The notes under the pieces: model-generated
Told to the model about the DNA's origin: nothing
Database searches by the model: none
What the model saw: the letters and a program-made list of their open reading frames with translations, nothing else
NCBI GenBank assembly: GCA_907164885.2
Contig: OU015496.1
Coordinates: 139,175,034-139,239,033 of the forward strand
DNA: 64,000 nt
DNA from: Dolomedes plantarius
Taxonomy: Eukaryota > Arthropoda > Arachnida > Araneae > Dolomedidae
Direction of reading: 5' to 3'
Shown: positions 41,363 to 64,000 of the stretch, piece by piece
Position numbering within the stretch: position 1 is the stretch's first letter
Layout: each line of letters opens with the position of its first letter
Made by a program: the position numbers and the translations under genes

Positions 41363-41535
41363 GCGGGCGATGGCCGAATGGTTGGGGCACTGGCATTCGG
41401 TACCAAAGTCTGTGGGTTCGAATCCCACTCTTGGCATAGACGTTTGTAGCCGTTCGAAATCGGTTTTAGGCAGAAGGTCCTGGTCTAATTAGCCCTCGTG
41501 TAGCAAAATTTGTCCGCAGTGCTCCAAACCTAGCA
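41363..41535 (+). mobile_element. tRNA-derived SINE (plus strand)
   Basis: Head cgggcgatggccgaatggtt (A box at 41371) with B box gggttcgaatccc at 41414-41426, like a tRNA with a D arm and T arm, followed by a unique body (agaaggtcctggtctaatta). I call it a SINE, since a body follows the tRNA head and there is no 3' terminator. Confidence 0.75.
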
Positions 41536-43990: not shown

Positions 43991-45393
43991 AGTCAAAAAT
44001 GTTAGAAATTTAAACACGCAAAGATTTTTATTTATGTACAGCTAATGTTTTAATACGGCTTGTAATTTTTTTTGTTTGTTTTTGCAGGTAGACTAGCACA
44101 GGTTAGGTTGTTTTTTCAATCAATGTCTTGCATTTCATTCTGTTTACAAGATTTTTTTTAAATTTCTTTAAGTTAACGCTTATTTGAATATCAATATTTT
44201 GTTATTCCGAATAGAGAAATTTTGATCTGAACTGATCAATTTCACATATCATCTCCATTTATGATATACCAAAAACTTATGTTCCAGCTATAGTTTAAAA
44301 AATTTGATGATATGCATATTAAAAAAATTATTAACATGTGGGTTGTATTATAATTTAATTGAAAAAAATTGATACACTGACTAATTTTTGATGTATTATT
44401 TTTTTATTTTTATCTAATGCATAGTAAAAAAAAGATAGAAACTAGCTCAGTATTGTTGCAGATATTCTTCCATAAAAGTTATTACAATGAACTTTTATTT
44501 TAATTGTTTTACGTATAATATGTCATTTGAGGCCTCATGTGCTCAATAAGAGTAAGAAATAAAACTGCAAATAAATACAATATTTTTTGTTTTCTGTTTT
44601 TTATTAATACTTGATGACTAAAATAATTTATCTCAAAATGATGATTAAAAAATAGCTTTTGCAGAGTATGTTTCTTTCATATTTCAGTTTGCTATTGTCT
44701 GAAAAGCTGAACATACGAATAATTTGTATGTTCAGCTTTTCAGACAGTCAGCTTTAAAGTAAATGTGAGTAATTAGAGTAAAAGCTTTAGGGTAAATGGG
44801 AAGTGACACTTAATTAATGAGTGTAACTTCATATTTACTCTAAAGAATCATACATAAAAAAAACTGATAAAATTATATTCTATTGAATGTAACTTAGAGT
44901 ATAAAATTTTTTATATAACTTTTATAAAGGAAACGTATTTGAAATTTATTAATGTAATATGCATGAAAATGTCATTATATGAGAAAATATATTAAAGGAA
45001 ATTTAATCCCTCTGAAATCTTATCATTTTAAAGCACACAAAATGAAAGTGATTACAGACATAAAAAAAAAAAATTTTTTAATGTTAAAAGAAAAATTGTT
45101 GTAATTGCCTTTATGGAAGCTGCAAAATTTGTTCATTTAATGTTAAATGAACCTTTATTCAATAGTATGATAAATGTATAAAAGTAACAGATTCAGGAAT
45201 GCCTGTGCAGAACTTTTCCCTTTATATAAATTCACTTATTAGATAAAGTTCAAAAGCTTTTTTTTCATATAATATGGGATAATGAACCAAATATATATAG
45301 TTGGCATGTTTATTGTAAAATTGCATAGTTCTAAGAATATAATCAGTATCGCTACTATATATTTTCTTAAGTTTAAAATATACAAAACAAGTA
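43991..45393. other. A+T-rich gap, hairpin at 44697
   Basis: No gene seen. Contains the perfect hairpin listed separately. Confidence 0.4.
44697..44745 (+). repeat. perfect 20-bp hairpin with 9-nt loop
   Basis: gtctgaaaagctgaacatac, loop gaataattt, then its exact complement. The flanks pair further but imperfectly (gctatt / agtcagc). It could be a microRNA-like precursor, a snap-back MITE relic or cruciform DNA. Confidence 0.9.
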
Positions 45394-46144
45394 CAGTGTG
45401 TGTAAAAACTTTAAGGACAGCAAAAAATTTAATTTCTTTGAAAAATTTCAAATCAGATGAAAAAAAGTATACTATAATGTGTATCATAAAGTTATAAAGC
45501 TAATAAAAAAGTCAACAAAATTTATCTGTAAGTATTTCATTATGAAAATAAAATAATTATACAAGAAAACACTACTTCCATCTGTGCAAAAACTTTAAGG
45601 ACAGGAAAATAAACACAATACAGTATTGAAGAAACAAATACTTAATATGTTGTGCATCTACCACTGCTTTTAATGACCGCAAATATTCTATCTTTCATGG
45701 ACATTATTAATTTTTGGCACAGTTTGGGGCTGGTTTTGTACCACTGATCTTCAATCGTAGATGTAAGTTCTGAAGCTGGGGAAAAATGCCTTCGATTTTT
45801 GTAAACTCGTCTTTCTAGATCTCCCCACAAGTTCTTGATAGGGTTTAGATCAGGATTTCTGGGTGGCCATTGTAAAACTTCAGTATTTTTCTTTTGGAAC
45901 TAGAGTTTTGTCCTACAGCTTATGTGGATAGGCGCATTATTTTGCTGATAAATCCATTTTTCCCCTGCCAGAAGTATTGCAACAGGTGAATGAAGGTCTG
46001 AAAGAGTTTTTAGATATGCCTTTGAATTAACCTTTCCTAAAAGAAACGCAAGTGACCCCATGCCATTAAACGGAAAGCAGCCCCATGTCATAAGGGATCC
46101 GCCACCTAATTGACGGGCTGAGATGATTTCTTTTTCCTTTAAAT
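45394..46144 (-). pseudogene. Tc1-like transposase fragment
   Basis: Minus strand frame 46144-45642: GGSLMTWGCFPFNGMGSLAF, WIYQQNNAPIHIS (second catalytic Asp changed to Asn), a stop at 45900, then LQWPPRNPDLNPIKNLWGDL, where the catalytic Glu is also changed to Lys, and an end at KSSGRCTTY. Both catalytic changes show this lineage is dead. A Tc1-like end (tttaaggacag) occurs at 45592 and again at 45409. The N-terminal half is cut off by a hAT end at 46145. Confidence 0.85.
45608..45653 (+). repeat. 46-bp exact repeat, copy 1
   Basis: Identical over 46 bp to 46625-46670 (starts aataaacacaatacagtatt). This copy is the 3' flank of the Tc1 coding region. Confidence 0.95.
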
Positions 46145-46624
46145 CAGTGGTTCTCAACCTGGGGGGCGTAGAAGAATTTCAAGGGAGGCGTGATTAAAAA
46201 AGTAAAATAAAAAGTAAAACTAACTGTAATTTACTGTACTCAATTTTGCAGTCGCAATGTAATCATAACATATTTTCGACATACGAACACGAATACGATA
46301 ATTGTCGTAATTGTAAAAACACTATAATTGTCACACATCTGGACGTTGAAAGTGACCTGAGGTGTGCTTTGTAACAGTTACAACCTAATATTCAAAAACT
46401 TGTCAAGGACAAACATTGTATGTATTGATCAATTTCTTATGGATGGATTTATTGCTGTAAAGTCTTTCCTTTTAAAAATAGTTTATGATATTCATATATC
46501 ATGACAAAGGTTTTAAAAAAGTTTTTGGTTTTCATTTCATGAAACATCCTTGCACGTTATAAAATCATCATAACAATCTTAGAAAATAAAATACTAGTGT
46601 AGAAACCTGCTAGTATTTGCACAC
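46145..46624. mobile_element. hAT-type end with A+T-rich body
   Basis: Starts cagtggttctcaacctgggg, a widespread hAT/MITE end, exactly where Tc1 coding sequence stops. No matching right end was found before the second copy of the 46-bp repeat. Confidence 0.6.
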
Positions 46625-46670
46625 AATAAACACAATACAGTATTGAAGAAACAAATACTTAATATGTTGT
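46625..46670 (+). repeat. 46-bp exact repeat, copy 2
   Basis: Exact copy of 45608-45653, about 1 kb away, on the far side of the hAT-type sequence. Confidence 0.95.
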
Positions 46671-48060
46671 TCCCCCATCATTTGTACTGAAATTATAAAA
46701 GTCTTGTAACTTTATATTTCAATTAATGAACTCATATTTCTTTTTCCTTATGTGCTTAAATTTTTACAAACTCCTAATTGCAACGAAAAAGATACATCTT
46801 TTAGATCATATTTTTGCAAAATGAAATCAACAAAATTGCTAAAAATAATGTTAAATAGATTATTTGCTTGTTGTAAACAGTTCTATACTGATGAAGATGA
46901 TTTTATGAAGTTCTGATCAATGGATATGAAGAATTGTCTCTTAAAAACAATTAAAATTTATCCATATTTTCAGTTATTTTTAAGGTCCATAAAAAAAATC
47001 TTTAAAAAATCCTTATTTTTGATTATACAAAAGAGTATAAACCCTGAAAATGGTGGGTAATTTGAATTTTGATCAGAAATTAGAAAATTTTCAAAATAAA
47101 ATCGGAAATGTAAATACCAAATGTGCACTGTCATTGTTTCTAGAACATGGCTACTGCAGTTGATGAAATGTCCATAAAATATGTGTGCTGTCCAATGTGT
47201 GTGATGAGAAGGATTTTAAGGGACACGAATAGTGCCTTTCTATTATTGTCGCTTTAGTGTTGGAATCTGAATAGTAAATACTTTAGAAAATTCATGACTT
47301 ATTTATATTCTTTGTATTCTCAAATTATATTGCACATATTTGTTTTCCTCTTAAGATCTATGTCAAACATATGTCTGTTATGCTGTTCTGAAATGAACAA
47401 ATGCAGTAAAGTAAGATCATGTTGTAGCTCTTGATGAATTATTCAGTATTTAAGTATTTTTATAATTATGTTTTCGTTTAAAATAAATTTTAATATATAT
47501 CAAAGCTAAATGAGTGCTTATACTGTACATTGCTATGGAAAATAAAAGGCTGTATTTGTATTAAGTACTTTTTTGGCTATTTTTATTTGAAGTATGTAGA
47601 ATGGCATTATGACTGTTTGTAACTATTATATTGTCACTCATAAAAACAATGTTAACTGCTATAAAGGAAAATGGTCTTCATGTAGTTCCCAGATGATTCA
47701 GTTTTGTCATTATCAGTATCACTTACCAAAAAAATTGAAAGTCCTGTTTGGATGTAATAAGTGATTTATATGGTGAATGTTTTATGCAATAAGTTTTTCT
47801 GTCATAAAAATAATTATATTTGCATTGCATATTAATTGTAAAATTCTTCTTCTAAACTCGTTTTTTTTTTCTCTTTTTTGTTAGTATAAATGGGTTTCTT
47901 TCTTTTTTTTTTTAATGAGAAATATACTTAAAATCCTATTTCTTAAAATAAAAAAAAATATATTTTTTTTACTTTAAGCTTTAAAAAATATTTCTAAAGT
48001 TTAACTAAAAAGTGAAATTTATAACATTAAATTTTATATTCAATGAAAAATTATATAAAA
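46671..48060. other. A+T-rich gap, no gene seen
   Basis: No supported frame; several homopolymer runs of A and T at 47860-48000. Confidence 0.4.
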
Positions 48061-48169
48061 TCTGAATGTTATGCCACAATATGACGTACGCAGGAACAGA
48101 CAAATTACACATTTCGAGAAATATTCGCCAAATGTTACCCCATACCCTACGAATATCATCTATTCAGGG

Positions 48170-48323
48170 AGAGACGCTCGCGCATCTTCTGTTTACAGAA
48201 AACGATGTATTTTGCACATAAAGGATGACCCCCTAAGCTTACTTTCTTCGATGAACAGTTTTTCAGATCCCTGCGCATGCGCAGTTTTCCCGCACATTCT
48301 GAAACTGAATTATAGAGATGCAT
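48170..48323 (+). promoter_or_regulatory. probable promoter and 5' noncoding exon of the cassette gene
   Basis: ctgcgcatgcgcag (48271-48284) is a perfect palindromic NRF1 site, followed at once by ttttcccgc (E2F-like, 48285-48293). A donor-like gcat|gtgagt lies at 48323/48324. The next possible acceptor is gagatag at about 48560, just before the ATG at 48571. This motif pair is typical of TATA-less housekeeping promoters. Start site not proven. Confidence 0.5.
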
Positions 48324-48570
48324 GTGAGTGCATGTGGATTGTTATGTGTTTTGATAGTAATTGTTCTTAAGGAAACTCAAAGAAATAAGCCAAATTATTC
48401 TTGAAGGAAAATTTTATTTTGACTCTGGAATTTTTTCTATCATTGCGGTATATAGAGCATGGTTTGCAAATTTTGTTTTTAAAACTTTTAAAAACTAATT
48501 GGTTAATATAAATAAACTGATGTAAAATACTGTTTGCTTTATTTCATGAAAATTGAGATAGTATACAAAT

Positions 48571-48610
48571 ATGACAGACAGTGATGATGAAGATTATGAA
48601 CTTCCAAATC
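48571..48610 (+). CDS. start exon of a small acidic-peptide gene
   Basis: ATG 48571 opens MTDSDDEDYELPN, 13 residues of which six are Asp or Glu, and stops one base into the next codon at a consensus donor (aatc|gtgagt). An in-frame TAG just upstream of the ATG rules out a longer frame unless another exon is spliced on. The single leftover base fits the two-base entry of each 40-nt exon A (57388, 59197, 63122). With any of the three cassettes the product is 46-47 residues, acidic at both ends, with no signal peptide or membrane segment. I recognise no family; a nuclear or cytosolic disordered protein is inference. The gene may have further exons beyond the window. Confidence 0.6.
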
Positions 48611-50164
48611 GTGAGTATTTTGATACAGCTATGATAACTTATTGTACTTTTGGTTTTAGTTGGGGTAAGTAGTTTACCATTTATCAGCCATTGATTATCT
48701 TACTAAACTGTGTAATTTGAGGTTAACTGACGGCACTCTCTGATTTGCATAGATCTTACCAAGTTTGTCTTAGAAATATGATTTATTTCTTTATTTCAAT
48801 AATAAAGGAATGACGTGTAATTTAATGCATTTTCGCAAGTGGTATAGGCAGAGGAAAAAATGTATTATTTGCAAACAAGCTTCAGCCTTTGAGATGATTG
48901 CTTGATTTGCTTTTTATAGCATGATGATGAAGGATTAATTCCTTCAAAACACGCCATTGAAGTTTTGTGTGTATGGTGTGTTTTAAAAGGTGTTTTGTAC
49001 CCTTATAACCATTATGAATTAAACAATGTTTTTATTTATTATTTTCTATGAACAACAAAAATTGCGAGTTGAATTAATGTATTTTGTACTTTAAATTGCA
49101 TGAAACAGAATTAATGCAGGAAGATGAGACACATATGAGGTTCTGGAAATAAAGAGCATGCCGAGTTTGGCATGCTGTTTTTTATGTTTATTCCATCTTA
49201 AGATTCTGAATACAATTACCAGTTTATTATTTTGATATGCCAATATGCTGTGGGCTACTTTTCCCCCGTGCATTCTTGATATTTTTTATGGGAGAGAATT
49301 TGCCGTTCTAAGGTTTTTTTTAAAATTTGTATCAAACTTTCATTTTGCACAATCGAAATGTTTTAGCAGGCCACTAAAATACCGCCGCCTGTGGCCGCCG
49401 AAAACCCATGGCCTGCGGGTTGAAGACCCCTAATTTAGAGTTTAGACAATGTAGATTTCTTAATATTTCTTTCATGTTTTCCTTTAATGTTTCCATTAAT
49501 TTCTGACCATTTTGTGTTATAAAATGTTATCCAGCAGTTTGAAGGCTTTAAACGAGTAAGTCACTATAAATTTGCCAGAGTAAGGTACAGATACTTGAAA
49601 CATTTTTTAGATTTAATTCTACATCCAGGGTTTATGAGAATAGAGGTGAAACCCTGCTGAATAGTAATATGTGCAAGAACTCAAATTAAATTTTAAAGGG
49701 AATTATCTCATTAATCTTTTTAAGATTGGTATTCATTTCTTGAGTTTTATATTAATGAGACTGCACTGTGTTGAGTTATAATCATACTTATGCTTTTCTG
49801 TATGTTTAAATTTTAGCTTTATGATAGTGAAGGATAACTGTATTGTATTGCTGAATTTTTAAATTTATGGAATGATAAGAAAAATTACTATAAATACTTC
49901 ATTAAACTTTAAAAGTTTAACTCTGAGTTTTTGTTGTGATACAAGAAAATTGTTGAGTAGCTTGATTTATTTCTTTTCAGCTTAAGGGCAATTCGATGTG
50001 ACTCACGTTACTGTTTGACACATTTTTGCAAAAGTAAATTCTATATATATCAAAGAAATATCACATTTGATTTAAAAAAAGTTCTTTATAGACATCTGGG
50101 GTACAGTAAGAAACTAGAGATATCAATATCTAAAGATTTAATATGAACAGATGGTATCCAGACC
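48611..50164. other. intron sequence of the cassette gene, no gene seen
   Basis: A+T-rich. Contains a hAT-like end at 49366-49434 and a short palindrome at 49156-49177 (agcatgccgagtttggcatgct). Confidence 0.4.
49366..49434. mobile_element. right end of a hAT-like MITE
   Basis: G+C-rich block ending gcctgcgggttgaagacccc, a typical complement of a hAT start (ggggtcttcaaccc). No left partner found. Confidence 0.45.
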
Positions 50165-50640
50165 AGGGTCATTCCATGTCAAATCAACACAATTTTTTGC
50201 AAAATCTGGAATGACCCTCCCAGATTTTGATGATTTTTGGCACACTTGCAGGTTTCATGGACATATGAAAAAATATCAATTCTTAGTGGTCTTACTTTAT
50301 TGGTTCAAAAGTTATTAAATATTAAAATTTCAATTTTTTGCAAAAAAACACCACATATGTCAGTCTCAAAATGGCTGTAAAATAGTGAACATTTGAGGTG
50401 CAGACCTGAACTTAGGCTCATTTTAAAGCTCTTTTTTAGGGCTTTCACATGATATACAACATGATAGCATTTATAAAAAATAATTTTTCAAAAAGCAAAA
50501 ATTTTAAAATTTTGAAAAAATTCTCAAAATATGTTTATATTATCATCTAACAGCACCATATATCTTATTTTGGGATCTTTATGGGATCCTGAGATATAGG
50601 AGGTATAATGCATGCATGGTTAGAGGAGAAATGCCAAATC
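50165..50640 (+). repeat. left long inverted repeat of element B
   Basis: Inverted partner of 52732-53235; includes gggatcctgagatataggag near its inner edge. Confidence 0.88.
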
Positions 50641-50859
50641 TTTCATATACATATACAAATAATTATAATGTATAATTATACAATCATATATAATTATAAT
50701 TACATAAGTATATATATAATTATATACTTATTTATTATATATATAACACTTTTCTAGAAAAGCCAGTCTATCTCAAAATCATAATTTTATTTATGGAATC
50801 ATGAATAGAGTTTACCAGTTTAGAGACATGGAAGTAGCACATGTACAGAGATCACATCT

Positions 50860-52398
50860 TCATTTCTGGGAGGCCATGAACTCTTGTACAATCTCCTCAA
50901 TCTTTTGCACCTTGTTGCCTTGTAAACTGTATGTTCGACCAGTTGGTGTGACGGGGTTCACCTTGCAGATCACATTTGAAGAGGGAATCCACAGTACATC
51001 AGGTCTTGTAGGGTATGAAAATGAAGGAGATGGTCCTTGAGGATGGAGAAATGTTGCCTTTACTTCATTTACATCTTCATTTTTAGCTAAAACATAGCTT
51101 AGGTACCATTTGCCATCATAGACTGCAACCACATATCCACCCATGTCACTGAAGCCCAATAACTTGCTACAGGAAAGATGGTTGATGTAGATGCAGAAGA
51201 AAATGATTTTACAGTTACTTTTGTTGTACACTTTGAGGGTCCAAAGGCATGGAGCTTTTGTGTCCCTGGGATAGCTACAGTTTTGTTGTACTAGTGTGCC
51301 AATTGTTCTTCTGTTTGAATATACTCTTCATGGTTTACATATTTGAAATCTGTTAGAAATATTCTGATTTGCCCATTCAAAGAGTTGTCTTGGAGTCTGT
51401 ATTTGGTCTTCATAAGGTCGCTGCAGGCTAGCCCTGGCTGCCAATCTTTTTACTGTGCCCCCACTCCATCACATGGGCCTTTTACATGTGCAGTGGCTGA
51501 AAAATGCCATTCAGCTTCAACCCCAAAATCTTTGTAGTGAAGGCACAGGTTTAAAAAGTTCTTTTTATTCTTGTATTGGGCTGCTGACCCATCTGAAAAA
51601 TAGTAATTTTTTTGGAAATGTTTCAAACTTTGATTTCAGATACTGTATTAGTTTTGTTTGAAACAGATAGACTGCAGTAGTGTTGTGCTCAAGGCAGTCT
51701 GATATTATTACGAAACTGAAATGCTTTTTTTAATCTTCTTTTTTAAAATACACTACAAACGGATGCACTGTTGCCTGGTTACGTGTCCAGTGGTAAGATT
51801 GTGCTTCGTCCTGTAATACGAAGGAATAATTCTCAGAAAAATCACAAAGGACGACCACCACCTCAGAATCTAAGAGATTTTCCTTAGTCTCACTCATAAA
51901 AGAATTTTGCTGTTTTGCTATGAAGTCATGACAAAGCAGAACAGAGAGTTTCTCACAAAAAATTTCAACAAAGTCATCTACTGATTTTTGGATTGTTTCC
52001 AAGTTACAGCGATCAACAGAGATCCACTGGCAAAAAGTAATAGTCTCAATTGTATTTTCTTCAAACCCTCTTTCCAGAATCATCCGGATTCCTTCTGTTC
52101 CTGGACATGACACACAATTAGAGAAGAAACAGTTAATTGACGGTGGGTTACAGACCATCATTTGCAAACAGTCCTGGTATGTTTTCATCTGGTTGTCTGT
52201 GATTAATTTCATTTTGCTGTTTTCAACCATAAGTTTCACATTTTGGTGAGTAGTACATACACAAACTGAGTGGGTGCTACTCTGACCAGATAGAATACAG
52301 TATTTGGGCCGTAATTCTGCAAATTTAGAGAACCCAATTTTTATACCTGGAAACTTTTCCTGGAAGCATTTGTATACTTCCTTTAAATTACTCAGCAT
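50860..52398 (-). pseudogene. uncharacterised transposon-associated protein with conserved aspartates (element B)
   Basis: Minus strand. A 223-codon frame (52398-51730) reads KIGFSKFAELRPKYCILSGQ, THSVCVCTTHQNVKLM, NCVSCPGTEGI, VVVLCDFSENYSFVLQDEAQ and WTRNQATVHPFVVYF. After shifts come YFSDGSAAQYKNKKNF (about 51600), HVKGPCDGVG, VKRLAARASLQRPYEDQ (about 51430-51490), and a C-terminal domain at 51231-50860 (GGYVVAVYDGKWYLSYVLA ... GRTYSLQG). I know this arrangement from many arthropod proteins annotated only as uncharacterised. The spaced aspartates (CDFSENY, FSDG, PCDG) suggest an RNase H-like transposase core, which is inference. This copy has several frameshifts. An ag before the frame may be a splice acceptor for a lost first exon. 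Confidence 0.78.
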
Positions 52399-52731
52399 CA
52401 GTCTCTTGGAAACTTACTTTAGCACCTGTGATGTCTTTCACTGAAATACATCAGAGGTCAATCACTAATCAGCTTCCTCCATTCTCAGATTGTTATATAT
52501 TGTATCTTATAATTTAGGGAAAGATTTTTTAAAATCTGTTTGATATTTTTTCACTTTTTAGTAGTGTAAAGGAGATGAAATTAAGAATTAAATAATAAAA
52601 TTATACATGATTATAAATGTAATTATTATATTTATATATATTTTTAATCACATATTACTATGCAATTGCATATGATTGTATAATTATATATTATAATTAT
52701 ATTTATTTGTATATAACTCTATAATATGGTA

Positions 52732-53235
52732 GATTTGGTATTTTTCCTCTAACCATACATACTTTATACCTCCTATATCTCAGGATCCCATAGAGATCCC
52801 AAAATAAGATTTTGGGTGCTGTTAGATGATGATATAAACTTATTTTGAGAATTTTTTCAAAATTTTAAAATTGTCGCTTTTTGAGAAATTTTAATTTTAA
52901 AATTTCAAATTGATTTTAAAAAATTATTTTTTTATAAATGCTATCATGTTGTATATCATGTGAAAGCCCTAGAAAAGAGCTTTAAAATGAGCCTAAGTTC
53001 AGGTCTGTACCTCAAATGGTTACTGTTTTACAGCCATTTTAAGACTGACATATGTGGTGTTTTTTTGCAAAAAATTGAAATTTTAATATTTAATAACTTT
53101 TCAACTGATAAAGTAAGACCACTAAGAATTGACATTTTTTCATATATCTATGAAACCTGCAAGTGTGCCAAAAATCATCAAATTCTGAGGGGGTCATTCC
53201 GGATCACTGTGTTGATTTGACATGGAATGACTCCT
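52732..53235 (-). repeat. right long inverted repeat of element B
   Basis: Inverted partner of 50165-50640. Confidence 0.88.
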
Positions 53236-53392
53236 CTATAACTTCTTCTATGTCACTTCTGCAATTAGTCATATTGCTGATACTAACTGAACACTTGTGA
53301 AACTCGAAATGATTACAAGAAGTACAAAGAAAATCCTTTTATAGCTAATGGGACGAACAAGTCTAGACTTGTAGCAACATATCTTTTTTTTT

Positions 53393-53695
53393 TTAACCTA
53401 CGCCTGACCTTGGCTTTTCAGCCATCAGTCTCTGTCGAGCAGCCCAATACAATCTCGAATAAAACGAAAAGTCATATTCAGCAGAATTTCTAACTGCAAT
53501 GTCAATAACTCCAGGGCAAGAGTAGAGGTGGTTACCAGTCATGTCGTCAAGCCCACACAAGGGGCAAGTCGGAGAGTCTGTCAAACCAAAACGGTGGAGG
53601 TGTTTCTGCAAATAGTCATGTCCCGTCATGAGACGGAAGTTTGCAATGCCCACAGTCTGTGGCATTGCAAACTTGCAACCCTGTGGAGGTTGCAC
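53393..53695 (-). pseudogene. C-terminal zinc-knuckle-like region of the I-type LINE ORF2, frameshifted
   Basis: Minus strand frame with ANFRLMTGHDYLQKHLHRFG, then SPTCPLCGLDDMTGNHLYSCP (Cys-x2-Cys...His...Cys). It continues ORF2 after a frameshift around 53650-53700, where tgtggcattgcaaacttg is partly duplicated (gaagtttgcaatgcccacag nearby), suggesting a small local duplication caused the shift. Confidence 0.85.
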
Positions 53696-56172
53696 GGAAC
53701 AGGCTTAGTTAGCAAAGAGGCCCAAGCTTTTCCTCTCGTGGAATCTTTGTAAATATTTTTACGAAAGGAAGCAATATTTGTCTTTACAAGCTTTTTAACA
53801 GTATGATATTTCAAAGATTGACAAGGCTGTTGTAAGTTCGAACCAGCCTTGGCCAATTTGTCAGCTGAGTCATTACCAGCGATGCCACAGTGGCTGGGTA
53901 TCCACTGCAGCACGATTTCACGACCCTCTTCTAGAAGGGAACTAATAGCCATCTGACAGAGGTAAACAGATTTAATATTGCTGGGTGTAATTGATGTGAG
54001 TGATTTGATGGCGACCTGTGAGTCGATAAAAAATACAATATTGCTCTCACCATTTTTGCTTATTTCCTCAAGAGCCAAATACACAGCTGCAACTTCACCA
54101 TTGTAGCTGTTATAATATTCACCAATAGCTTGGCCAAGCTTAAAACGTTTTGAGTATACACCTGCACCAGCATTTCTAATGGCATCTACAGCAGAGCCAT
54201 CTGTGTATACATGAAACCAAGTTGGTGAGGGATAACGCTCATCAATAGTAGCCAGGGCAGCCATCCTTAGCTCAGAATCAGTAGAAACATTTTTACCTAC
54301 AGGAAGTACTAGGTCAAGACGGCAATCAGGTCCAAAAATAAGATTTTGGAAGTTAGAAGGTCTAAATAGAGGTTCTCTATCTACATTCGGGATCTTAAAT
54401 CTCTCGGATAATTCCTTGGACAAACTCAGAAACGTTTTCTGAGTTTTCAATCTAGGGTAAGCAGGTGTATAGTTTTTCCAAAAACCCTCATCCCTCAGAA
54501 GCCTTTCATAGAGTTTCAGGGCAGCTCTTTGTCGCCGATCCGCCAAAGGTTCCAGTCCGGTTTGAATCTGCATTGCCTCAATAGGGGTGGAAAAAGCCCC
54601 ACCGGAGATAAATCTAAGGCCATTGTTTTGTACAGTCTCCAGTTTTTTATGAATAGTGTCCGATGCAGTAACCAGGAGCTCAGCTCCATACTCAACTGCA
54701 GGCCTGATGTAGGACTTATAGGTAGTGCAGAGTAAGTCTTGTGAAGCACCCCATTTAGCTCCAGAAAGTCTTTTTAAAAGCTTACTTCTGGAGTTCCCAA
54801 CGTCCAGAACTTCATCAGCTTGACTATTCCAACTTAACCTTGTATCTAAAGTGATACCCAGATATTTAGCTTTAACTGTTTTAATTAGACGATGCGGACC
54901 ATAGAATAGACTAACATCAGAGGGTTTTGTACTTAGGGTAAAAACCAGATAAAAGGTTTTATCTATATTTACAATCATCTGATTTTCCTCAGCCCAATGG
55001 AACAGCTTATCCAGAGCTCTATTAAGTGATAATTGGATATGCTGCATAGTTCTGTTATAAGACCAAAGGACCAAATCATCTGCGAAAAGGAGGGCCTCAA
55101 CATCCCTATCAGCATCCATGACTCTCAGGATTACATCGTTTATCATGATATTAAACAAAATAGGGCTCAGCACAGAGCCCTGAGGAAGTCCCTGTTTAGT
55201 CTGCCTGTAATTGGAGACAGAGCCACCAAACCTGGTTCTAATAAACCTCTGGGACAGAAATGACTTGATCCAATTGTACATTGCACCACAGATTCCCATC
55301 TCCACCATTTTCTTAAACAATTTTCTTCTCCACACTCTATCAAAGGAGGTTTTGAAGTCTATAAAAACTGCCACAGAACTGTGTTTTCGATGAAAACCAT
55401 CCTTAATCATTTGTGAAAGTCTAGCCACTTGTTCAACTGTGTTTCTATTTTTACGAAAACTTGCTTGATTATATGAAAGGCAAGAATAGCTTTCCAAGTA
55501 GAATTTGTGCCTATCCGCAATCAAGCGTTCTGTCAATTTACAAACGGCACTTGTAAGGGAGATAGGCCGGTAGCTAGCGATTTCAGCAGGGTCTTTACCG
55601 CTCTTGAGGATTGGAATAACCTCGGCCTTACTCCACTCACTTGGAAGACCTTTCCTCCATGACATATTAATTATATTGAGAAGAACATCCAGGAGGCCCT
55701 CCCCAAGGTTCATCAGGAAGTCTGTCACAATTTTGTCAGGACCGGGGCACTTACCCCGAGTCAAAGTTTTAATTCCACACTTGAGTTCGAAAAAGGAGAA
55801 AGAAGAATTGAACAAACAGTCCAACTCAGGAGTTAAAGCAAGACTGTGGGCAAACCAATTCGCTATCATAAATCCTATCAGAGGGGAAATAATTTCTAAT
55901 GTTTGCATAATATTTATTAAAGGCTCTGGCAATTTCCCTATCTGAAGTAAGCAATTTATTGGTTCTTTTCTAATTTCCTTTTGATTGTTGATTTTAGAGA
56001 GAAAGCGATGAGCCTTTAAGGCATCCCTTCTGTAATCCAAGCCCTTTAAGAAGTTATGAAAAGTGTGGCGTTTAGCCTCTTTAATAGCAAGTTTAAGAAT
56101 GGCTTGTCTTTTACGAACATATCTAAACTTGCATATTACATTGTTATGAAAACTCGCTGTTTTTTTCAGCAA
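53626..56172 (-). CDS. I-type LINE ORF2: reverse transcriptase and RNase H
   Basis: A continuous 848-codon frame. RT: LTRGKCPGPDKIVTDFLMNL (about residues 135-155), SYRPISLTSAVCKLTERLIA, VAVFIDFKTSFDRVWRRKLF (catalytic Asp), QGLPQGSVLSPILFNIMIND and LLFADDLVLWS (catalytic pair). The thumb follows (KAKYLGITLDTRLSWN). RNase H: WFHVYTDGSAVDAIRNAGAG (Asp), YNGEVAAVYLALEEISK (Glu), NIVFFIDSQVAIKSL (Asp) and IPSHCGIAGNDSADKLAKAG (His, Asp), all four acidic residues present. RT plus RNase H defines the I-like group. The frame then goes wrong near 53690 and the last Cys/His region lies in another frame. No endonuclease: the copy is 5' truncated. The best-preserved retroelement frame in the window. 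Confidence 0.93.
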   Translation of the reverse strand: MLKKTASFHNNVICKFRYVRKRQAILKLAIKEAKRHTFHNFLKGLDYRRDALKAHRFLSKINNQKEIRKEPINCLLQIGKLPEPLINIMQTLEIISPLIGFMIANWFAHSLALTPELDCLFNSSFSFFELKCGIKTLTRGKCPGPDKIVTDFLMNLGEGLLDVLLNIINMSWRKGLPSEWSKAEVIPILKSGKDPAEIASYRPISLTSAVCKLTERLIADRHKFYLESYSCLSYNQASFRKNRNTVEQVARLSQMIKDGFHRKHSSVAVFIDFKTSFDRVWRRKLFKKMVEMGICGAMYNWIKSFLSQRFIRTRFGGSVSNYRQTKQGLPQGSVLSPILFNIMINDVILRVMDADRDVEALLFADDLVLWSYNRTMQHIQLSLNRALDKLFHWAEENQMIVNIDKTFYLVFTLSTKPSDVSLFYGPHRLIKTVKAKYLGITLDTRLSWNSQADEVLDVGNSRSKLLKRLSGAKWGASQDLLCTTYKSYIRPAVEYGAELLVTASDTIHKKLETVQNNGLRFISGGAFSTPIEAMQIQTGLEPLADRRQRAALKLYERLLRDEGFWKNYTPAYPRLKTQKTFLSLSKELSERFKIPNVDREPLFRPSNFQNLIFGPDCRLDLVLPVGKNVSTDSELRMAALATIDERYPSPTWFHVYTDGSAVDAIRNAGAGVYSKRFKLGQAIGEYYNSYNGEVAAVYLALEEISKNGESNIVFFIDSQVAIKSLTSITPSNIKSVYLCQMAISSLLEEGREIVLQWIPSHCGIAGNDSADKLAKAGSNLQQPCQSLKYHTVKKLVKTNIASFRKNIYKDSTRGKAWASLLTKPVPCNLHRVASLQCHRLWALQTSVS

Positions 56173-56174
56173 GC

Positions 56175-57387
56175 AAACTAAATGAGCTGGTTGAGACTTG
56201 CATATTTGGTATTACTAATCTGTTTATGTATATTTATGTTCTTATGAATGATTCCCTTTGTATCAACAAGGGATCATAAAATGTGCCAGTTGGAATTGCA
56301 TGTTGGTTATTACTAACACGTGTTGTAATGTATAACCTATTTCAAAGATATTATATTGATATTTGATAAATTTTATCAAATATTATGCAAAGATTACAAA
56401 AGAAAATCAGGAAAAACTTTTAGAAGGATGTACTTTATTTGTAACAGGAAAAATTGTTATAAGGATGTAAGGGAGTAACAGAATAACATCACAGTTTTCC
56501 ATCGGGTCATATTGAACCGAACAGTACATGAGTAACAAACTTAAAATAATACTCAAAACATAAAAATAATGGGAAGATATTTTATGGGAATTAAATACTC
56601 TTATATAGAAACAAAGTCACAAGATCTAACACTGTTATCACTGATGGTTCGGATTTTATACACTGATAAAATTTATTTCAGGTCTAATAGACCTGAACAG
56701 AACAGCAGGTTTAACCATAAAAGAATACATTTTAAACTGTCCTTGCTTACTTTCACTTACACTGTAATATTGTATTAGAATGGGCAAAGTGAGTTAATGT
56801 CTTTGAGTCCTAATATTTTTCCCTTTTGCTATTTAAATTTGAAAGTATTCCTTTAGACCAGGAGCTCTGCTACTGAACTTTTACACATTTTCTCATCTTA
56901 CGAGACTTGAGAGGACGACTGATTTTTTTTCAAGACCATTTCTTTTCATTTTGTCCTTATATATAAAGTGATTTGTAAAGATGCTCATATTGTCATTCCT
57001 ATTTAAGTAATTTTGAAAAATTTTAAACATTTTACTTGAATGTGTACCCTATCTACAGTATTAAAAATTAATTAATAATTAATTGTCCAGTACCATTTGC
57101 ACATTTTTGTTTTCTTGTAACAATTCAAAGGTTTTTTCTCTCTATATATAAAAAAGTAAATAATAATAATTAAAAAATAAAGCATTATTTAATTTCTTAA
57201 GCTATTGCTGTCCTCTTCTATATTTTTAGTAATTAAAAGGTTTGTATACATTTTTTTGCTGGGGGTTATTTGATTGTTTCTCAATACTTATTTTTTTTAT
57301 GTCTGGGAAAAATATATGTAGTCTTACAACTTTCATTAAAAAAGATTTGCTTTTTATTTAAATTGACAGCAGTCTTCTTTTTTCCAG
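56175..57387. other. intron sequence, no gene seen
   Basis: A+T-rich with no coding signal. Confidence 0.45.
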
Positions 57388-57427
57388 TGTCTGAAAGAAT
57401 TCAGGCTTCTTTTAAGCCTCAGATAAC
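57388..57427 (+). CDS. cassette 1, exon A (40 nt)
   Basis: Acceptor ttttttccag, donor taac|gtaagt. Read after the single base left by the start exon it gives L-SERIQASFKPQI plus two bases (ac). The 40-nt length and entry and exit phases are the same as exons A2 and A3, with about half the bases identical. It is the oldest diverged copy. Confidence 0.6.
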
Positions 57428-58035
57428 GTAAGTTTAATTTTTGATTTGATTTCATTTATTGTGTATTTTTTAATATTGAATTTCATTCTAATTTTTTTTA
57501 TTTTCTTAACAGATTTTTTAACTTGTTTTTTCTATTCTTTTATATGCATTGTTGTATTGTCAAAGTATATCTCATGTTAACAGTAAGTAGGTTGCTCCCT
57601 AAAAACCTCTTGATCCTACTGTAAAAAAAAAAGTCACATTTGACAGCTTCTACACAGTATCAGCATTATTTTTACTAAGGTATGCCCAAATACATCATAA
57701 CAGATATGAAATGTTTTACATTTTAATGATTCTTGACAGTTTAACAGATTTTTTTTCAGTAAAAGAGATTTTCATTCACCTCTTCAGAATGATAAATTTT
57801 TGTAAACTGTACCAGTAACACATAATTATAACTTCTTTGGATAAATCTAAGAAATGTTCCACCAATTTATGAAGAACATTATTGTACAAAATCCCCCCCC
57901 CCTCCCCCTTGTTGAAAAAAAAAATAGGCGAGAAAATTTGTAAAATTATTAAAGATATGCTTAGTAATGACGAAATCATGCAGAGCTGTTAAAGTAGTCT
58001 TTAAACACTGGAATAATTACAACTTTGATTTTCAG
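57428..58035. other. intron between cassette 1 exons
   Basis: A+T-rich, with a C run at 57892-57903; acceptor gattttcag at its end. Confidence 0.5.
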
Positions 58036-58096
58036 GTTGAAGTCTGGCAAAGCATATGATAGTGAGTGTGAAGAATCTGAATTCTTAAAATGTTGA
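58036..58096 (+). CDS. cassette 1, exon B (terminal, 61 nt)
   Basis: Acceptor gattttcag. Its first base completes the codon from exon A1 (ac+g), then LKSGKAYDSECEESEFLKC and TGA 58094-58096. Acidic, serine-rich end with the shared ESEFLKC terminus. The sequence after TGA (gtata) is conserved in all three copies. Confidence 0.6.
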
Positions 58097-59084
58097 GTAT
58101 AATTTTGTGTTAAACTGCTATGTAATGTATTCTTTTCTGAAATTTGATATAATAAATATTGAAAATATCAACTTTTATGAGGTAAATATATTTCTTCAAT
58201 TGCTACTGTATTAAAGGCGTGGTAAGAAGTCTTAACACCCTTTACCACATCGATAGGGAACATTAATACAAACTTAAAATAAAGGATACTTTTCACAATT
58301 TTCTTGTGAAATGTAAATAAATTTCTCACTACAGTAGACATTTTCTTCTATCAAAATATTTCAGCTGCAGTAATCGCTTTATTGAAAACTAAGCATTTAC
58401 TCTGGTAATATTTTTACTTTTTTGGTGTTTGAATAAATGACAAATTACCCTTTTTTTTTGTAATGGAGTATGGCATTACTATAAATATTATTTGTATTAG
58501 AAACATGATAGAGAAGTTAGATTCTTCTTTCATACATGAATAGTCTATAATAATTGCAATATCAAAAACCTTTTAATTTATAGCAAAATTTTGTTCGCAA
58601 AATCACAATATTTTTCAGGTTGGGATGGAATTGTATAAGTATACTCATAATTGCATAAGATCTCTGACTATTCTATCAGGTTTCTTGTATTTTAATTATC
58701 ACTTAAGTTTCTTTTTCGTATAGGAATAGATGTATTGAAACAAATATTTTTCCTGTAATAAGGCAGGTTTCTAATCTGATAGGGGTAGCTGCCTGTATTT
58801 CTCATGTTAGTTCTTCAAATAAGTGTTCTCATGTAGTGTTTCAAATAAGTAATACCTTGCCTAATATTGTATCAACTCCATAATAAACTTACCTTTAGTT
58901 TTACTGAACAATGCAAAAAATATTTTTTTTCATGTGTGAATGAAGTTGTAAATACATGATTGTGGATATAAAGTATTCTATATTCAAATTTATATGGAAC
59001 TACAGAAAAATTTTAAAATACTTTACAAAATACTTAAATTTTGGCTGTGCAAAATATTAAAGATCATATTTTTGCCAATATTTC
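58097..59084. other. spacer between cassettes 1 and 2
   Basis: A+T-rich. An aataaa lies at 58151 (ataataaatattg), 55 bp after the stop, and could serve as a poly(A) signal. Confidence 0.4.
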
Positions 59085-59196
59085 TTTGTTACATTTGATG
59101 ACTGTGTTAGTGACAATTTGGATATTGTTCCTTTTAATAAATTAGTGACTTATATTGCACATTTGTAGTAATAATTTTTTTTAAAAATATATATAG

Positions 59197-59236
59197 TTTC
59201 ACAGAGGATTCGTAATACTCCCTGTTCCCAAGTTAA
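59197..59236 (+). CDS. cassette 2, exon A (40 nt)
   Basis: Acceptor atatatag, donor ttaa|gtaagt. Reads L-SQRIRNTPCSQV plus aa after the start exon. Phases identical to exon A1 and A3. Confidence 0.62.
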
Positions 59237-59395
59237 GTAAGTATTTTTTTGATTTACTATTTTATGCAATGTTTGTGAAAATTTATTTTTTAACAGAATG
59301 TCTAAAATTTCTTTCACTACTGTGAAAATAGAAATTTCTTTTCTTGTTTATTTTATTAACTTCATCTTAAGCTAATTGCAGCTTTATTTCTTCAG

Positions 59396-59459
59396 GTTCA
59401 AGCATCGGGTTAAAACATCTGATAGTGAGAGTGAGGAATCTGAATTTCTAAAATGTTGA
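59396..59459 (+). CDS. cassette 2, exon B (terminal, 64 nt)
   Basis: Acceptor tttatttcttcag. First base completes aa+g (Lys), then FKHRVKTSDSESEESEFLKC and TGA 59457-59459. SDSESEESE is a strong casein kinase 2-type acidic serine pattern. Confidence 0.62.
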
Positions 59460-60003
59460 GTATAAATTTATGTCTTTGTATTATTAAAACTGACTTCTTG
59501 AATCTAATTTAAAAAATTATATATCAGGCCATATAACTTCCCCCCCCCCCCCTTTTTTTTTCCATTCCATTTTTTTTTCATCTATTGTTGGAACAGTGTT
59601 TTTTTTTACGATTGTGAGTTTCCCAATAAAACCACTAACATCAATCTAAAATCTTTAGGCTTAAAAATAAAAATTATGGGCAAGTACACTGTCCCCCCCC
59701 CCCCCAAAAAAAAAAAAAAAAAAAAAAATAATTCTTGTTTAATGCCACAATCTGAAACCTGTTTTCTTAGGCTGTTTTTGAAAACTCTGAAGGTACAAGT
59801 GACTTACAAGAGGATAAACTGGTTAAAAAGAAATTTATGTAAAGTTTATAAATTTGTGTCCCCATTTTAAGTTTTTCATAGAAAAATGGAAGTCCTTAGT
59901 TTTTTAGACAAATACCATAATCATATGTTGTGATAGAATCTGAGACATTAATTACAAAATAAATTGAAGCTTATTATTTTGTTATTAGATCTGTTAGTTA
60001 AAT
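59460..60003. other. spacer with C and A homopolymers
   Basis: C run at 59540-59552, T runs, and a C run followed by a long A run at 59693-59729. No gene. Confidence 0.5.
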
Positions 60004-60139
60004 ATAAAGGTGGCCTAAATGAAAGTGAGACTCTTGTTTTAGTGGCAGTGGTTAAATACCTAGAGTTTTGTGTTTGTGTGAGTAGATGACATATGTTATA
60101 AAACAATTCTGCTATTGTCAGAAAGTGTCAGTGTGCTGT

Positions 60140-60253
60140 TTGAACGTGTTTAGGCAAGGTGACTACATATGGTCGGGACATGGATTCGTCCAAACAGGCC
60201 CAGCAAGTGGTTGTTCTGTCTTTGATGGTAGATATCAGTGAAACCGAAATTTA
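60140..60253 (+). pseudogene. mariner C-terminal sequence, left of the Harbinger insertion
   Basis: Reads CLNVFRQGDYIW (about 60140-60175), the mariner C-terminus, although the right part carries a second similar end (gacaaggcgactatatgta at 62394). So the left part is a rearranged or second mariner piece. Confidence 0.5.
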
Positions 60254-60438
60254 AGCTGCGTTTACATGGACAACAATAATACCCGGGATTTACCCGCTAA
60301 TAGGGAAAACCTTCGAAGCCCGTTTACATGGGACCACATTTTCACCCTGCTTTTACCCGTCTTACCGGAAGTAAAGGCCGTCACATGATTCGGCGGAAGT
60401 GATCCTCATACACCATCATTCCTTGTAAATCACGTTAT

Positions 60439-60475
60439 GGGTTCGATCCCAGGCGGTGTCATACTTTTCCAAATT
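60439..60475 (+). other. isolated tRNA-like B box
   Basis: gggttcgatccc at 60439-60450 with a matching 3' context (aggcggtgtcat). The A box is not clear, so this is a SINE or tRNA remnant at most. Confidence 0.3.
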
Positions 60476-61082
60476 CACTGTATTGCTATTTTTAGCTTTC
60501 CATCTTCGAACTCAGCATTTATCTCGTTACGAAGTGTATGGTCCTGGGGAAGGCCTTTTTTTTTCCCAATTGCTGTTCTTTTGACCTCGTATTCTTAAAT
60601 TTTAAAAATAACAACAACAAAAAAATCATAAAACTTTAAAAATCAAAAAAGATTGAAAAACTTACAAAAATATTTTTTGTATTCTTATGATATCTGCTTT
60701 TCTGGGCCTCTTAATATTATTACTTTTTTGTTTTCCGTGGATTCCGTGGATTGTTTTCCGTGGATTAGTCTTATCTAATTTTTCTTCTAAATTTTCTTAA
60801 CTTGTAAGTCTATATTTTTTCTGTTAAAATTAACTTTTTTGTTTTAATTTAACTTTACTATTAATTTTTTTTCTTTTACCCGCGTTATTCTTACCTTAAT
60901 ATTTTAATTCATTACTTAAAATTTTAACTACTGAGCACTCCCACCTTGATTACATATATCTTGCTTACAGGAGATAAAGTCGACACAACCAATGCACTCC
61001 TCTTCTAAAACACAATTACGTCTGCGTCTATTTGTTATTTAAATGCAGCATATGTCAGTCGCTGTTGATAATTATAGAACGT

Positions 61083-61331
61083 TTACGATTGTTTACTGTT
61101 GTTTTTAAAAATAAGTTTAGAAAATAGATAGGAAAAAAGGAATATAAGAACTAGAAGATTGATGCGGATATTAGATATAATCGTACGATCTATGGCTTCA
61201 TCGCTAAATTTAGTTTTTCCACAACAAAGAATGTGGGCAAAATTACGAAGCTCTGTTTGGTGGGAAGAAATTATTTTAAATTCCTGAAGTAATAAAGACT
61301 GGAAAGAAAATTTTCCAATCGATAGGTGCAT
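61083..61331 (-). pseudogene. possible Harbinger-element coding fragment
   Basis: 82-codon minus frame (EFKIISSHQTELRNFAHILC ... ILCCGKTKFSDEAIDRTI) ending in a hydrophobic run. Lies inside the Harbinger element in the same direction as the 61834 frame. No domain recognised, so it is offered only because of position. Confidence 0.25.
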
Positions 61332-61657
61332 TTTTTTTAAATTATAAGATTAATTGTAAGATACTTATTGTTTTAATAAATCCTTTTATAAAATCAAAAT
61401 GTAATTTTGATTTCAATTTTGTTTCAGTAATTTTTAGTCATGTATAAATAAAAAAATCATAAATAGATATAAATAAATTTTTATCTGTGAATTCTAAAAT
61501 AATTAATTTATAAATAAATTTTAATGTTACGTTTAATTATTGATTATACTTATTAAATTTATTAATTTTACCATAACACTTTAAATGAAAATGTTACTGA
61601 AATTTTATTGAAATGAAATTTTATTTCTTATTTTACATACCAGATGGCAGTACCATT

Positions 61658-61834
61658 CTATTTATAATGTAATTGGGGATGGTTCAGATCAAGAAATAAA
61701 TGAAATCCTTCGGAAAAAAATAGGCACTTTTCTACTGTTTTCTTGAAAATTATGCGATTGTTAAGGGGTTCCAGATCCTTCCATCGATCATTTAGCTGCA
61801 TTTTCATGGATTCACACAAGTTCAAATCCGCCAT
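61658..61834 (-). CDS. short frame at the 5' side of the Harbinger element
   Basis: ATG at 61834 (minus) reads MADLNLCESMKMQLNDRWKD then LEPLNNRIIFKKTVEKCLFF..., 58 codons to TAG at 61658. Its place just inside the right inverted repeat fits the start of an element-coded protein, perhaps the first exon of a Myb/MADF-like or nuclease gene. Not recognised. Confidence 0.35.
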   Translation of the reverse strand: MADLNLCESMKMQLNDRWKDLEPLNNRIIFKKTVEKCLFFSEGFHLFLDLNHPQLHYK

Positions 61835-61998
61835 GTTATTTACTCCCAGCTTCGAAATGCATCATGGGTAATTAGCGGGTTTTATCCTGGGTCGAAGCAG
61901 GGTCGAAAATCCACCCTGCATTTTTCCCTATCGTAGGGAAAAAGTAAGAAACGACCCTGCTTTTACCCGGGTTTTTGGCACATGTAAACGGCACTTTA

Positions 61999-62522
61999 AT
62001 GTCATATGAGGGATGTGTATAGACATGAGTGTCTGTCACAGTGCACAGAATTTGGATGGTTTATGGAATTTTGTAAAGGACGTGTGTGCACAGGACATGC
62101 ATAGACTTGCTGAAGCACACTTAGCCATCACCATGGAATCGACTGCCATGGACAAGATTTCCTGCAATGCTTCGGCTTGAAGGTCCTTAACCTTCTTCAC
62201 TGTCCCTATATCTCTACCTGTCCCCCTGTGACAACCACATCTTCAGCTCACTGAAAAAGACTTTTAAAGGCCACCAGCTTTTTAACATTACAAAGGTCTG
62301 GGGCATTGTTCAAGACTGGTTCTGCAGACAACCATGGAATTCTTTTCTCAGGGTATCCAAAATCTAGTAAGTGCTGGAACACTGTTTGAACCGACAAGGC
62401 GACTATATGTAATGGAAATGTAGCTCATGTATCACTATTACTTCCTGTATGTTCACATATTCCAACCAATAAACCATTATGTAAAAAAACCAAAATTCTC
62501 ACTTTCATTTGGGTCACCCTTA
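61999..62522 (+). pseudogene. mariner transposase C-terminal remnant
   Basis: Forward translation with shifts gives PYISTCPPVTTTSSAH and KRLLKATSFLTL, matching the mariner region around HPPYSPDLAPCDYHLF and LKK-LRG-F in relatives, then VQDWFCRQPWNSFL and CWNT(C/V)...TDKATICN, matching the mariner end. The DD34D motifs are lost. Heavily decayed. Confidence 0.6.
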
Positions 62523-63004
62523 TATATACTGCAAGTGTTATTGTCTGCAATATCCTTTGGATAACTTAAAAAATATTTTGTTAATGCTTTAACCCAAACT
62601 ATGTGGAAATATATTCTTGGCTTTTTATGAAATTACTGAACATTGTTAAAATAAATTCCTGTTTTCATTTGGCACATGAAGGGAAGAAAAAAAATTATGA
62701 ATTTTTGTAAAAGATTTTTTTTTTTCTAGAATTGTCTAATTAGTGCTAGTTAATATTTTCATATTTGTAAATGAGTAAATTGTTTGCAATATCTTAATTT
62801 TCTTGTTTTGGAACTAAAATTTTTATTATTTAATTCTTAGAACTTGAAGTAGCTTAAATTTGAATTATTATAAATATAATTTCTTCATTTTTTTATATGA
62901 AGAAAATTCTGAAAATTAATGTCTAACTAGTGTATTTAGTCAATCAGAAATGTCAAAAAAATGAAAAAAAGGCATTAAGGTAATATGTTTTCATTGATGA
63001 TTTC
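62523..63004. other. A+T-rich spacer, no gene
   Basis: No coding signal. Confidence 0.5.
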
Positions 63005-63121
63005 TTTGACACATTTGATGACTGTGTTAGTGATAATCTGGATATTGTTCCTTTTAATACATTACTGACTTACTATATTGCACATTAGCTGTAGAATTTA
63101 TTTTAATTTTAATTTATATAG

Positions 63122-63161
63122 TTTCAGAGAGGATTCGTAATACTCCCTGTTCTCAAGTTAA
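63122..63161 (+). CDS. cassette 3, exon A (40 nt)
   Basis: Acceptor ttatatag, donor ttaa|gtaagt. Reads L-SERIRNTPCSQV plus aa; two residues of its start (SER) agree with cassette 1 rather than cassette 2. Confidence 0.62.
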
Positions 63162-63320
63162 GTAAGTATTTTTGTGATTTACTATTTTATGCAATGTTTG
63201 TGGAAATTTATTTTTAAACAGAATGTCTAAAATTTCTTTCATCAGTGTGAAAATAAAAATTTCTTTTCTCATTTATTTTATTAACTAAATCTTAAGCTAA
63301 TTTCAGCTTTAATTCTTCAG

Positions 63321-63381
63321 GTTCAAGCCTGGTAAAACATCTGATAGTGATAGTGAGGAATCTGAATATCTAAAATGTTGA
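63321..63381 (+). CDS. cassette 3, exon B (terminal, 61 nt)
   Basis: Acceptor ttaattcttcag. After aa+g (Lys) it reads FKPGKTSDSDSEESEYLKC and TGA 63379-63381. Same acidic serine cluster and LKC terminus as cassettes 1 and 2. Confidence 0.62.
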
Positions 63382-64000
63382 GTATATTTTATGCCTTTAT
63401 AATTATGTGCTGCATCATTGTCTCACATTTGATAAAATGTATGTTGTAAACATATACTTTTGTGAAGCTATATATATATATAAAATAAAATGATGAATTG
63501 TGTGTATTGAAGGAAAAGGAAAAGTGAGATTTAGTAATCCTCCCCAATACAGTAATAACCATCATTTATACTGATAGCAGTAAAGAAATAATTCATGACA
63601 ATTTTATTAAAATATGTATAATTTTTTTCTGGAATAAAGAGGTTCCTTGATATTTAAGAATTTCATTTTTAATATGAAGGGACCTCTCTTGTAGTAAAAC
63701 TTCTTTGAACTCTTTGTCTTTCCAAAGTTATTGGTACTGAAGGTAATAATGTTGTATCTTGAGCAATACCATATACGATGCTGCTACTTTTACTTTTTAG
63801 GAGTATAATCTTAAAAAATCACTTTTTTTTTTTTTTGAGAGAGAGTATAAGGACATTGCTTAAGGTATTCACTGTACTTTTTTGGAAACTTAGTATAGAC
63901 ATAATAAACACTTTTAACACCTAAGCCAGTAGCATTATACAGTATAGGAAACTTTTTTCATAAAAAAATTTAGTAAGCATGCAATAGTTTGTAGTTTTTA
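63382..64000. other. A+T-rich DNA to the window edge, no gene seen
   Basis: An (AT)n patch at 63470-63482 and a T run with gagagagag at about 63820-63845. More cassettes could lie beyond the window. Confidence 0.4.

Follow-up and report, generated by a model that had tools for sequence, protein, structure and literature searches.

The first coding exon and the three tandem exon pairs of a 64-kb stretch of Dolomedes plantarius DNA (C6:139175034-139239033 of the 2.78 Gb assembly; hereafter the window) very probably belong to the upstream portion of a single protein-coding gene like GCNA (germ cell nuclear antigen) or ACRC (acidic repeat-containing SprT protease), in which what look like three alternative endings would be three of six internal repeat pairs. 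An earlier, sequence-only reading of the window had taken each pair for a terminal cassette, one of three ends from which splicing chooses to make a family of 46-47-residue acidic peptides. We read the window together with the next 200 kb to its right, 264 kb in total; coordinates right of the window continue its numbering, and adding 139175033 gives the C6 position. The gene would begin with a first coding exon, continue through six tandem two-exon units and one unpaired SERI-type exon, and pass by way of a linker exon into five exons for a protease and a zinc-ribbon-like part. The seven exons within the window lie at the places, in the phases and with the splice signals first assigned to them, as follows (a slash marks the end of an exon before its donor):

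48571..48610, + strand: e1, first coding exon, MTDSDDEDYELPN plus one base, donor C/GTGAGTAT, phase 1
57388..57427, + strand: 2a, SERI exon of unit 1, 40 nt, phase 1 to 2, donor GTAAGT
58036..58091, + strand: 3a, acidic exon of unit 1, 56 nt, phase 2 to 1, donor T/GTTGAGTAT at 58092
59197..59236, + strand: 2b, SERI exon of unit 2, 40 nt
59396..59454, + strand: 3b, acidic exon of unit 2, 59 nt, donor T/GTTGAGTAT at 59455
63122..63161, + strand: 2c, SERI exon of unit 3, 40 nt
63321..63376, + strand: 3c, acidic exon of unit 3, 56 nt, donor T/GTTGAGTAT at 63377

AG precedes all six cassette exons, and the 40-nt exons are entered in phase 1, left in phase 2 and followed by GTAAGT donors. The open frames of the three cassettes do terminate in the common ESE(F/Y)LKC-TGA that had been pointed out, and the starts of the second exons stand as first placed, but their lengths of 61 or 64 nt do not: these exons are best read as 56 or 59 nt long, ending before GTTGAGTA. 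No further cassette was found when we looked for one inside the 64-kb window. The array continues to the right, where the sequence-only reading had suspected more copies; three more pairs lie there, making six in total, and seven more exons come after them:

65811-65850, + strand: 2d, SERI-type exon of unit 4
68978-69033, + strand: 3d, acidic exon of unit 4
71054-71096, + strand: 2e, SERI-type exon of unit 5
72798-72850, + strand: 3e, acidic exon of unit 5
73149-73194, + strand: 2f, SERI-type exon of unit 6
75339-75391, + strand: 3f, acidic exon of unit 6
75550-75595, + strand: 2g, lone last SERI-type exon
77566-77669, + strand: x9, 104-nt linker exon
89843-90000, + strand: x10, one of five protease-part exons
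90996-91125, + strand: x11, one of five protease-part exons
92646-92742, + strand: x12, protease-part exon holding HEMCH
94466-94573, + strand: x13, one of five protease-part exons
96598-96685, + strand: x14, last exon, ending in TGA

Exons 2d, 3d and 2e were found by tblastn and blastn, searches that also hinted at 3e, while 2f, 3f and 2g were recognised by eye in the DNA. A composition-based exon scan gave x9 and pointed to no clear family; a wider scan of the same kind brought up LPKDIPLIWDGSLVKTAGLTY and RLQDTLLHEMCHAAVWVINKQNVSHGPLWQL and led to the SprT exons, x10-x14 being read from the DNA around its matches. Joined in order, the 20 exons from 48571 to 96685 give 450 codons and then TGA with every junction in phase, the first 15 of them reading open for 257 residues, which bears out the earlier view that these are coding pieces of one gene with a single start exon. 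The SERI-type exons are 40, 43 or 46 nt long and the acidic exons 53, 56 or 59 nt, and units 4-6 have larger inner introns (3127, 1701 and 2144 nt). All six units are multiples of three, 96 or 99 nt, running from phase 1 to phase 1 and encoding 32 or 33 residues, and the 12 unit exons can be joined with no stop and no break of frame. Exon anatomy, phases, reading frame, protease domain and the recurrence of one donor are direct observations on the DNA.

The start exon itself is probably related to the acidic exons, judging by sequence resemblance. It reads TDSDDEDYELPN-C/GTGAGTAT, which in codons and donor resembles the acidic exon end SDSDSEESEYLK-T/GTTGAGTAT, and in a scan of both strands of the window (step 10, self excluded) its three best DNA matches were the three acidic exons, with scores of 28, 27 and 26 against 25 for the fourth. 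Each of these scores was reached by 5 of 3000 dinucleotide shuffles. At the protein level the donor-aligned register was the best one for all three acidic exons, and shuffles left free to choose their register equalled the score in 5 to 21% of cases. If the acidic exon stops where e1 does, the unit is 96 or 99 nt long and passes from phase 1 to phase 1, and units that are entered and left in the same phase can be joined in series. The units would have arisen by tandem duplication of such a symmetric pair, with 32 or 33 residues gained in frame each time. A short degenerate motif occurs seven times in the spliced protein: acidic residues with F, Y or L among them, then a hydrophobic residue and a SERI head, each copy split by a phase-1 intron. 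S[EQ]RI occurs in four of the seven (2a, 2b, 2c and 2e) and TPx[ST]Q in four (2b, 2c, 2e and 2g); the latter could be phosphorylation sites.

What identifies the gene is its downstream part. Residues 296-391 of the 450 match the SprT-like family (Pfam PF10263) at E 7.9e-21, with 74.4 bits against a cut-off of 25.6, and the active-site HEXXH is present as HEMCH in exon x12. Searched exon by exon at E 1, the genome holds two PF10263 places, and the one overlapping x12 is the sole match above the cut-off, the other being weaker and on C7. Two CxxC pairs, CTNC and CKRC, lie toward the C-terminus, and the best solved relative in the PDB is Spartan (6mdw, E 7.8e-7). In the published layout of GCNA, disordered sequence makes up the N-terminal region and the SprT domain is C-terminal (PMC10250205; this and the other papers are cited for the parts of their text that were available). 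Because the spider gene has the same order, with repeats over about residues 1-225 and SprT at 296-391, we take it from its sequence to be GCNA/ACRC-like, where the earlier reading had recognised no known family. GCNA resembles it further in having acidic stretches within N-terminal repeats, C-terminal cysteine pairs and HEMCH, and the active site of zebrafish ACRC contains EMCH (PMC13092972). The GCNA disordered region is described as rapidly evolving and repeat-bearing (PMC5098910), and its repeats differ in build: an 8-residue repeat 25 times in mouse (PMC5098910) and only two short repeats in zebrafish (PMC13092972), whereas in the spider they are 32 or 33 residues long and come from duplicated exon pairs. 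The N-terminal 230 residues are overall only mildly acidic (47 D/E and 38 K/R). Spartan (SPRTN) likewise has a SprT-like protease domain, with HEMIH in place of HEMCH. Its SprT domain sits at the N-terminal end (chain 6mdw aligns from chain residue 27), whereas here the domain is C-terminal, behind the repeat region.

The acidic-exon donors explain why the three pairs looked like endings. GTTRAGTA stands at all six (GTTGAGTAT three times, GTTAAGTAT twice and GTTGAGTAC once), and the exons would be spliced on at T/GT or G/GT. Among the gene's 13 other donors none has T at position +3 (Fisher 3.7e-5, a figure to be read with the shared ancestry of the six acidic donors in mind), and of 13,334 plus-strand GTs counted over the 264 kb just 19 begin a GTTRAGTA, three of them where a SERI exon ends. 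The supposed stop (TGT-TGA) is intronic in our reading because the acidic exon ends earlier, at T/GTTGAGTA. Copies 4 and 6 have TAA instead of TGA, and in copy 5 the preceding cysteine is a glycine; a stop codon and last residue that vary beside an octamer that recurs in six of six is what one expects of a donor. Left unused, the GTTRAG donor leads to an immediate in-frame stop in all six acidic exons, and the apparent common C-terminus arises because the unspliced donor meets that stop at once. Each acidic exon would be spliced at [T or G]/GTTRAGTA, and the T at +3 would have to bulge for full pairing with U1.

That each pair is an alternative terminal cassette, so that the gene yields 46-47-residue acidic peptides, strikes us as very improbable, and as the least likely of the readings we weighed, despite the shared end of three open frames and an AATAAA or ATTAAA within 200 nt after each of the three stops. 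Such a hexamer is found in 42% of 200-nt stretches in 44000-63800 anyway, and we set these signals aside as not discriminating. Terminal cassettes require that there be no shared downstream coding exons, but 13 in-phase exons follow right of the window. The pair is present six times, not three, the gene runs on in phase for 450 codons into the protease domain, and it is GTTRAGTA that stays constant while the stop and the residue before it (TGA/TAA, C/G) do not. Minor forms that are unspliced or truncated may nevertheless occur.

A mixed reading keeps part of this idea: the full-length protease is made, and regulated failure to splice at an acidic exon gives a short, repeat-only protein with no protease. 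The T at +3 in all six acidic donors and the immediate stop behind each of them speak in its favour, as does the contrast with the related first exon e1, which has an ordinary donor and reads on if unspliced. U1 can pair with bulged sites, and a review links bulged registers to increased alternative 5' splice-site selection (PMC9311317). But any GTTRAG in phase 1 brings the stop with it, the six donors are related by descent, the U1 pairing computed for them falls within the range found at the other donors of the gene, and unspliced transcripts might simply be degraded, so we regard this reading as unlikely, though not negligible. A more pointed version, to which we give slightly less credence, is that the bulged GT(T)RAGTA is kept in each unit as a splice-or-stop switch whose inefficient splicing is itself useful, yielding repeat-only GCNA with one to six units. 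Some rodents have lost the protease exons of GCNA, and a switch of this kind, if true, would mimic that loss by splicing.

Could the repeat exons instead be decaying duplicates or pseudoexons, with only the protease part a working gene? The relations among the copies lend this some colour. Copies 2 and 3 are a recent duplication: they agree at 273 of 298 aligned positions of intron and flank, at 38 of the 40 positions of exon 2 and, one 3-nt gap apart, at 57 of the 61 of exon 3, within a homology block of about 410 bp (59080-59484 and 63000-63406). Because their introns are about as alike as their exons, the pair shows no exon-specific constraint, and we rejected it as evidence of selection; the three window copies are thus worth about two, and they are not the independent witnesses to coding for which they had been taken, even though the exons themselves do appear coding on the strength of the frame and the domain. 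Cassette 1 is far more diverged from the other two. Its homology to copy 3 extends about 95 nt beyond the supposed stop (58014-58191 and 63298-63477, 76% over 183 columns), so that copy 3 resembles copy 2 in its 5' part and middle and copy 1 in its 3' flank, which looks like the trace of a later gene conversion.

Substitutions between cassettes, proposed earlier as a check, gave a divided answer. Between units 1 and 3 the SERI codons have changed three times, always synonymously (matched by 0.8% of 20,000 random placements), and between units 1 and 2 one of four changes is non-synonymous (6.8% of random placements); both results are borderline. The five-codon heads of units 1 and 3, read with their own leading bases, show three synonymous changes and one other. 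The linker looks unconstrained (0.74), the acidic tail alone is not significant (0.13), and the contrast of motif with linker (p 0.052) depends on a split chosen after looking. Some acceptors are weak as well, with 9 pyrimidines of 17 in 2b and 11 in both 2c and 3a. Set against this, all 12 unit exons join without a stop or frame break and the donor is kept six times out of six, and decay seems to us highly improbable. The case for coding rests more on the 20-exon open frame and the protease domain than on synonymous counts, and the further pairs beyond the right edge of the window, three in number and built alike, are stronger evidence against chance than those counts are.

Our preferred reading, a single GCNA/ACRC-type gene with internal repeats, has several observations weighing against it. 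The splicing of the 20-exon chain is inferred from sequence, x9 and its links were picked by phase and splice signals alone, and small exons could have escaped us in the 8.8-kb and 12-kb introns. Exon 2a is identical to 2b at only 18 of 40 positions and to 2c at 20 of 40. Computed with the standard U1 end, which may not be the host's, pairing of the unaltered GTTRAG donors comes to -4.5 to -6.8 kcal/mol, within the -4.3 to -9.1 of the 13 other donors; it reaches -8.0 to -10.6 kcal/mol when the T at +3 is omitted and no bulge penalty is charged. In 3a-3c the GT after the stop (TGA/GTATAA) even pairs slightly better than that of TGT, at -5.1 against -4.6, and its use would retain the stop in the exon. 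The zinc-ribbon match (Zn_ribbon_SprT, E 0.01) stays below its cut-off, at 16.3 against 28.1 bits. Milder objections are that the 450-residue product has no Pfam match to an HMG box at E 0.1 and no match to the SUMO-interacting motif pattern of Carmell et al. (the ELM pattern quoted in PMC5098910), features in which it differs from GCNA. SUMO-interacting motifs are described as common to GCNA, Wss1 and Spartan, and an HMG box is named for C. elegans GCNA and is not among the human domains in the text available. Because the human protein is described as having a protease domain and a zinc finger, and GCNA can lose any domain but the disordered region (PMC5098910), we do not take either feature as defining.

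Searches with the repeat region also fail to help our reading. With cassette 1 as query, a DNA search of the genome found three places, all in the window, and is evidently insensitive since it missed units 4-6. A genome protein search with the three-unit product, insensitive too, listed 19 places up to E 10, three of which are window exons (E 0.0028, 0.011 and 0.025) and 16 lie elsewhere; the top match of the repeat protein outside the locus (C1:58993529-58993756, E 0.015, 38% identity, one internal TGA) perhaps reflects acidic composition only. The window exons gave nothing convincing in Pfam (best E 0.31), none at E 1 in one PDB search and nothing convincing in the others (best E 1.4, 0.44 and 0.69), and none at E 10, hence no homologue of the repeat region, in a protein database of uncertain animal coverage. 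For the N-terminal 257 residues the best Pfam match (E 0.05) was under the cut-off and PDB matches were chance-like (E 0.15). EME1, with an N-terminal acidic stretch and then PLAxRL, was considered for that likeness and dropped: an ERCC4-type domain would be expected downstream, but the genome has four ERCC4-domain places at E 1, on C1, C2, C9 and C11, and none on C6.

Mobile elements lie among the exons, one of them between the start exon and cassette 1, where transposons had been noted before:

53626..56172, - strand: reverse transcriptase and RNase H open reading frame (ORF) of 848 residues, in the 8.8-kb intron e1-2a, not part of the gene product
59999..62528: probable transposon, in the intron that separates unit 2 from unit 3 and likewise outside the gene product

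The latter has 42-nt inverted ends (59999-60040 and 62487-62528) that are 83% complementary, and by eye a second element is nested in it at about 60257-61999, its ends resembling GCGTTTACATG...CATGTAAACGG. Two neighbouring ORFs at 50860-51231 and 51730-52398 (-), 123 and 222 residues long and neither matched in Pfam at E 1, may belong to a single gene derived from a transposon. Elsewhere in the window there are pieces of a DDE_3 transposase at 3520-4122 (+), of an endonuclease-reverse transcriptase at 16382-16822 (-) and of a reverse transcriptase at 17934-19355 (-). Eight C2H2 zinc fingers at 11970-12704 (-) overlie an 84-nt tandem repeat (8.6 copies, 11925-12645), and a possibly tRNA-derived element at 41367-41436 (+) matches the Rfam tRNA model at 31.7 bits against a cut-off of 29 and was not called by ARAGORN. 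Right of the window, a set of ORFs of 85, 78 and 122 residues occurs three times at steps of about 8.26 kb (116279-133505), a large element in tandem, and a long open stretch at 200593-200928 is acidic, resembles an exon and has a good acceptor.

Dscam, Drosophila pip and PGRP-LC likewise carry duplicated exons or exon groups within one gene. Theirs are mutually exclusive or terminal, whereas the spider units are symmetric and lead to shared downstream exons, which makes serial inclusion the simplest reading here; exclusive choice or skipping of units is possible in frame. A literature search covering few subscription journals found no paper on GCNA with exon duplication and, among the matches listed, no title on point for GCNA repeats in arthropods. 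GCNA is known to act on DNA-protein crosslinks in embryos as well as germ cells (PMC7782752), and the spider gene is presumably expressed in the germline. To bind histones, human GCNA needs no more than its disordered region (PMC10250205); by analogy, the seven acidic-SERI motifs may form a multivalent and flexible tether through which the protease reaches chromatin or DNA-protein crosslinks.

If this reading holds, what looked like a puzzling family of peptides becomes the repeat region of a DNA-protein-crosslink protease, and duplication of a symmetric exon pair would be one way for the rapidly evolving region of GCNA to lengthen. The donor with T at +3, present six times in one gene beside the ordinary donor of the related exon e1, may also offer a natural series in which to ask how U1 deals with a bulged site.

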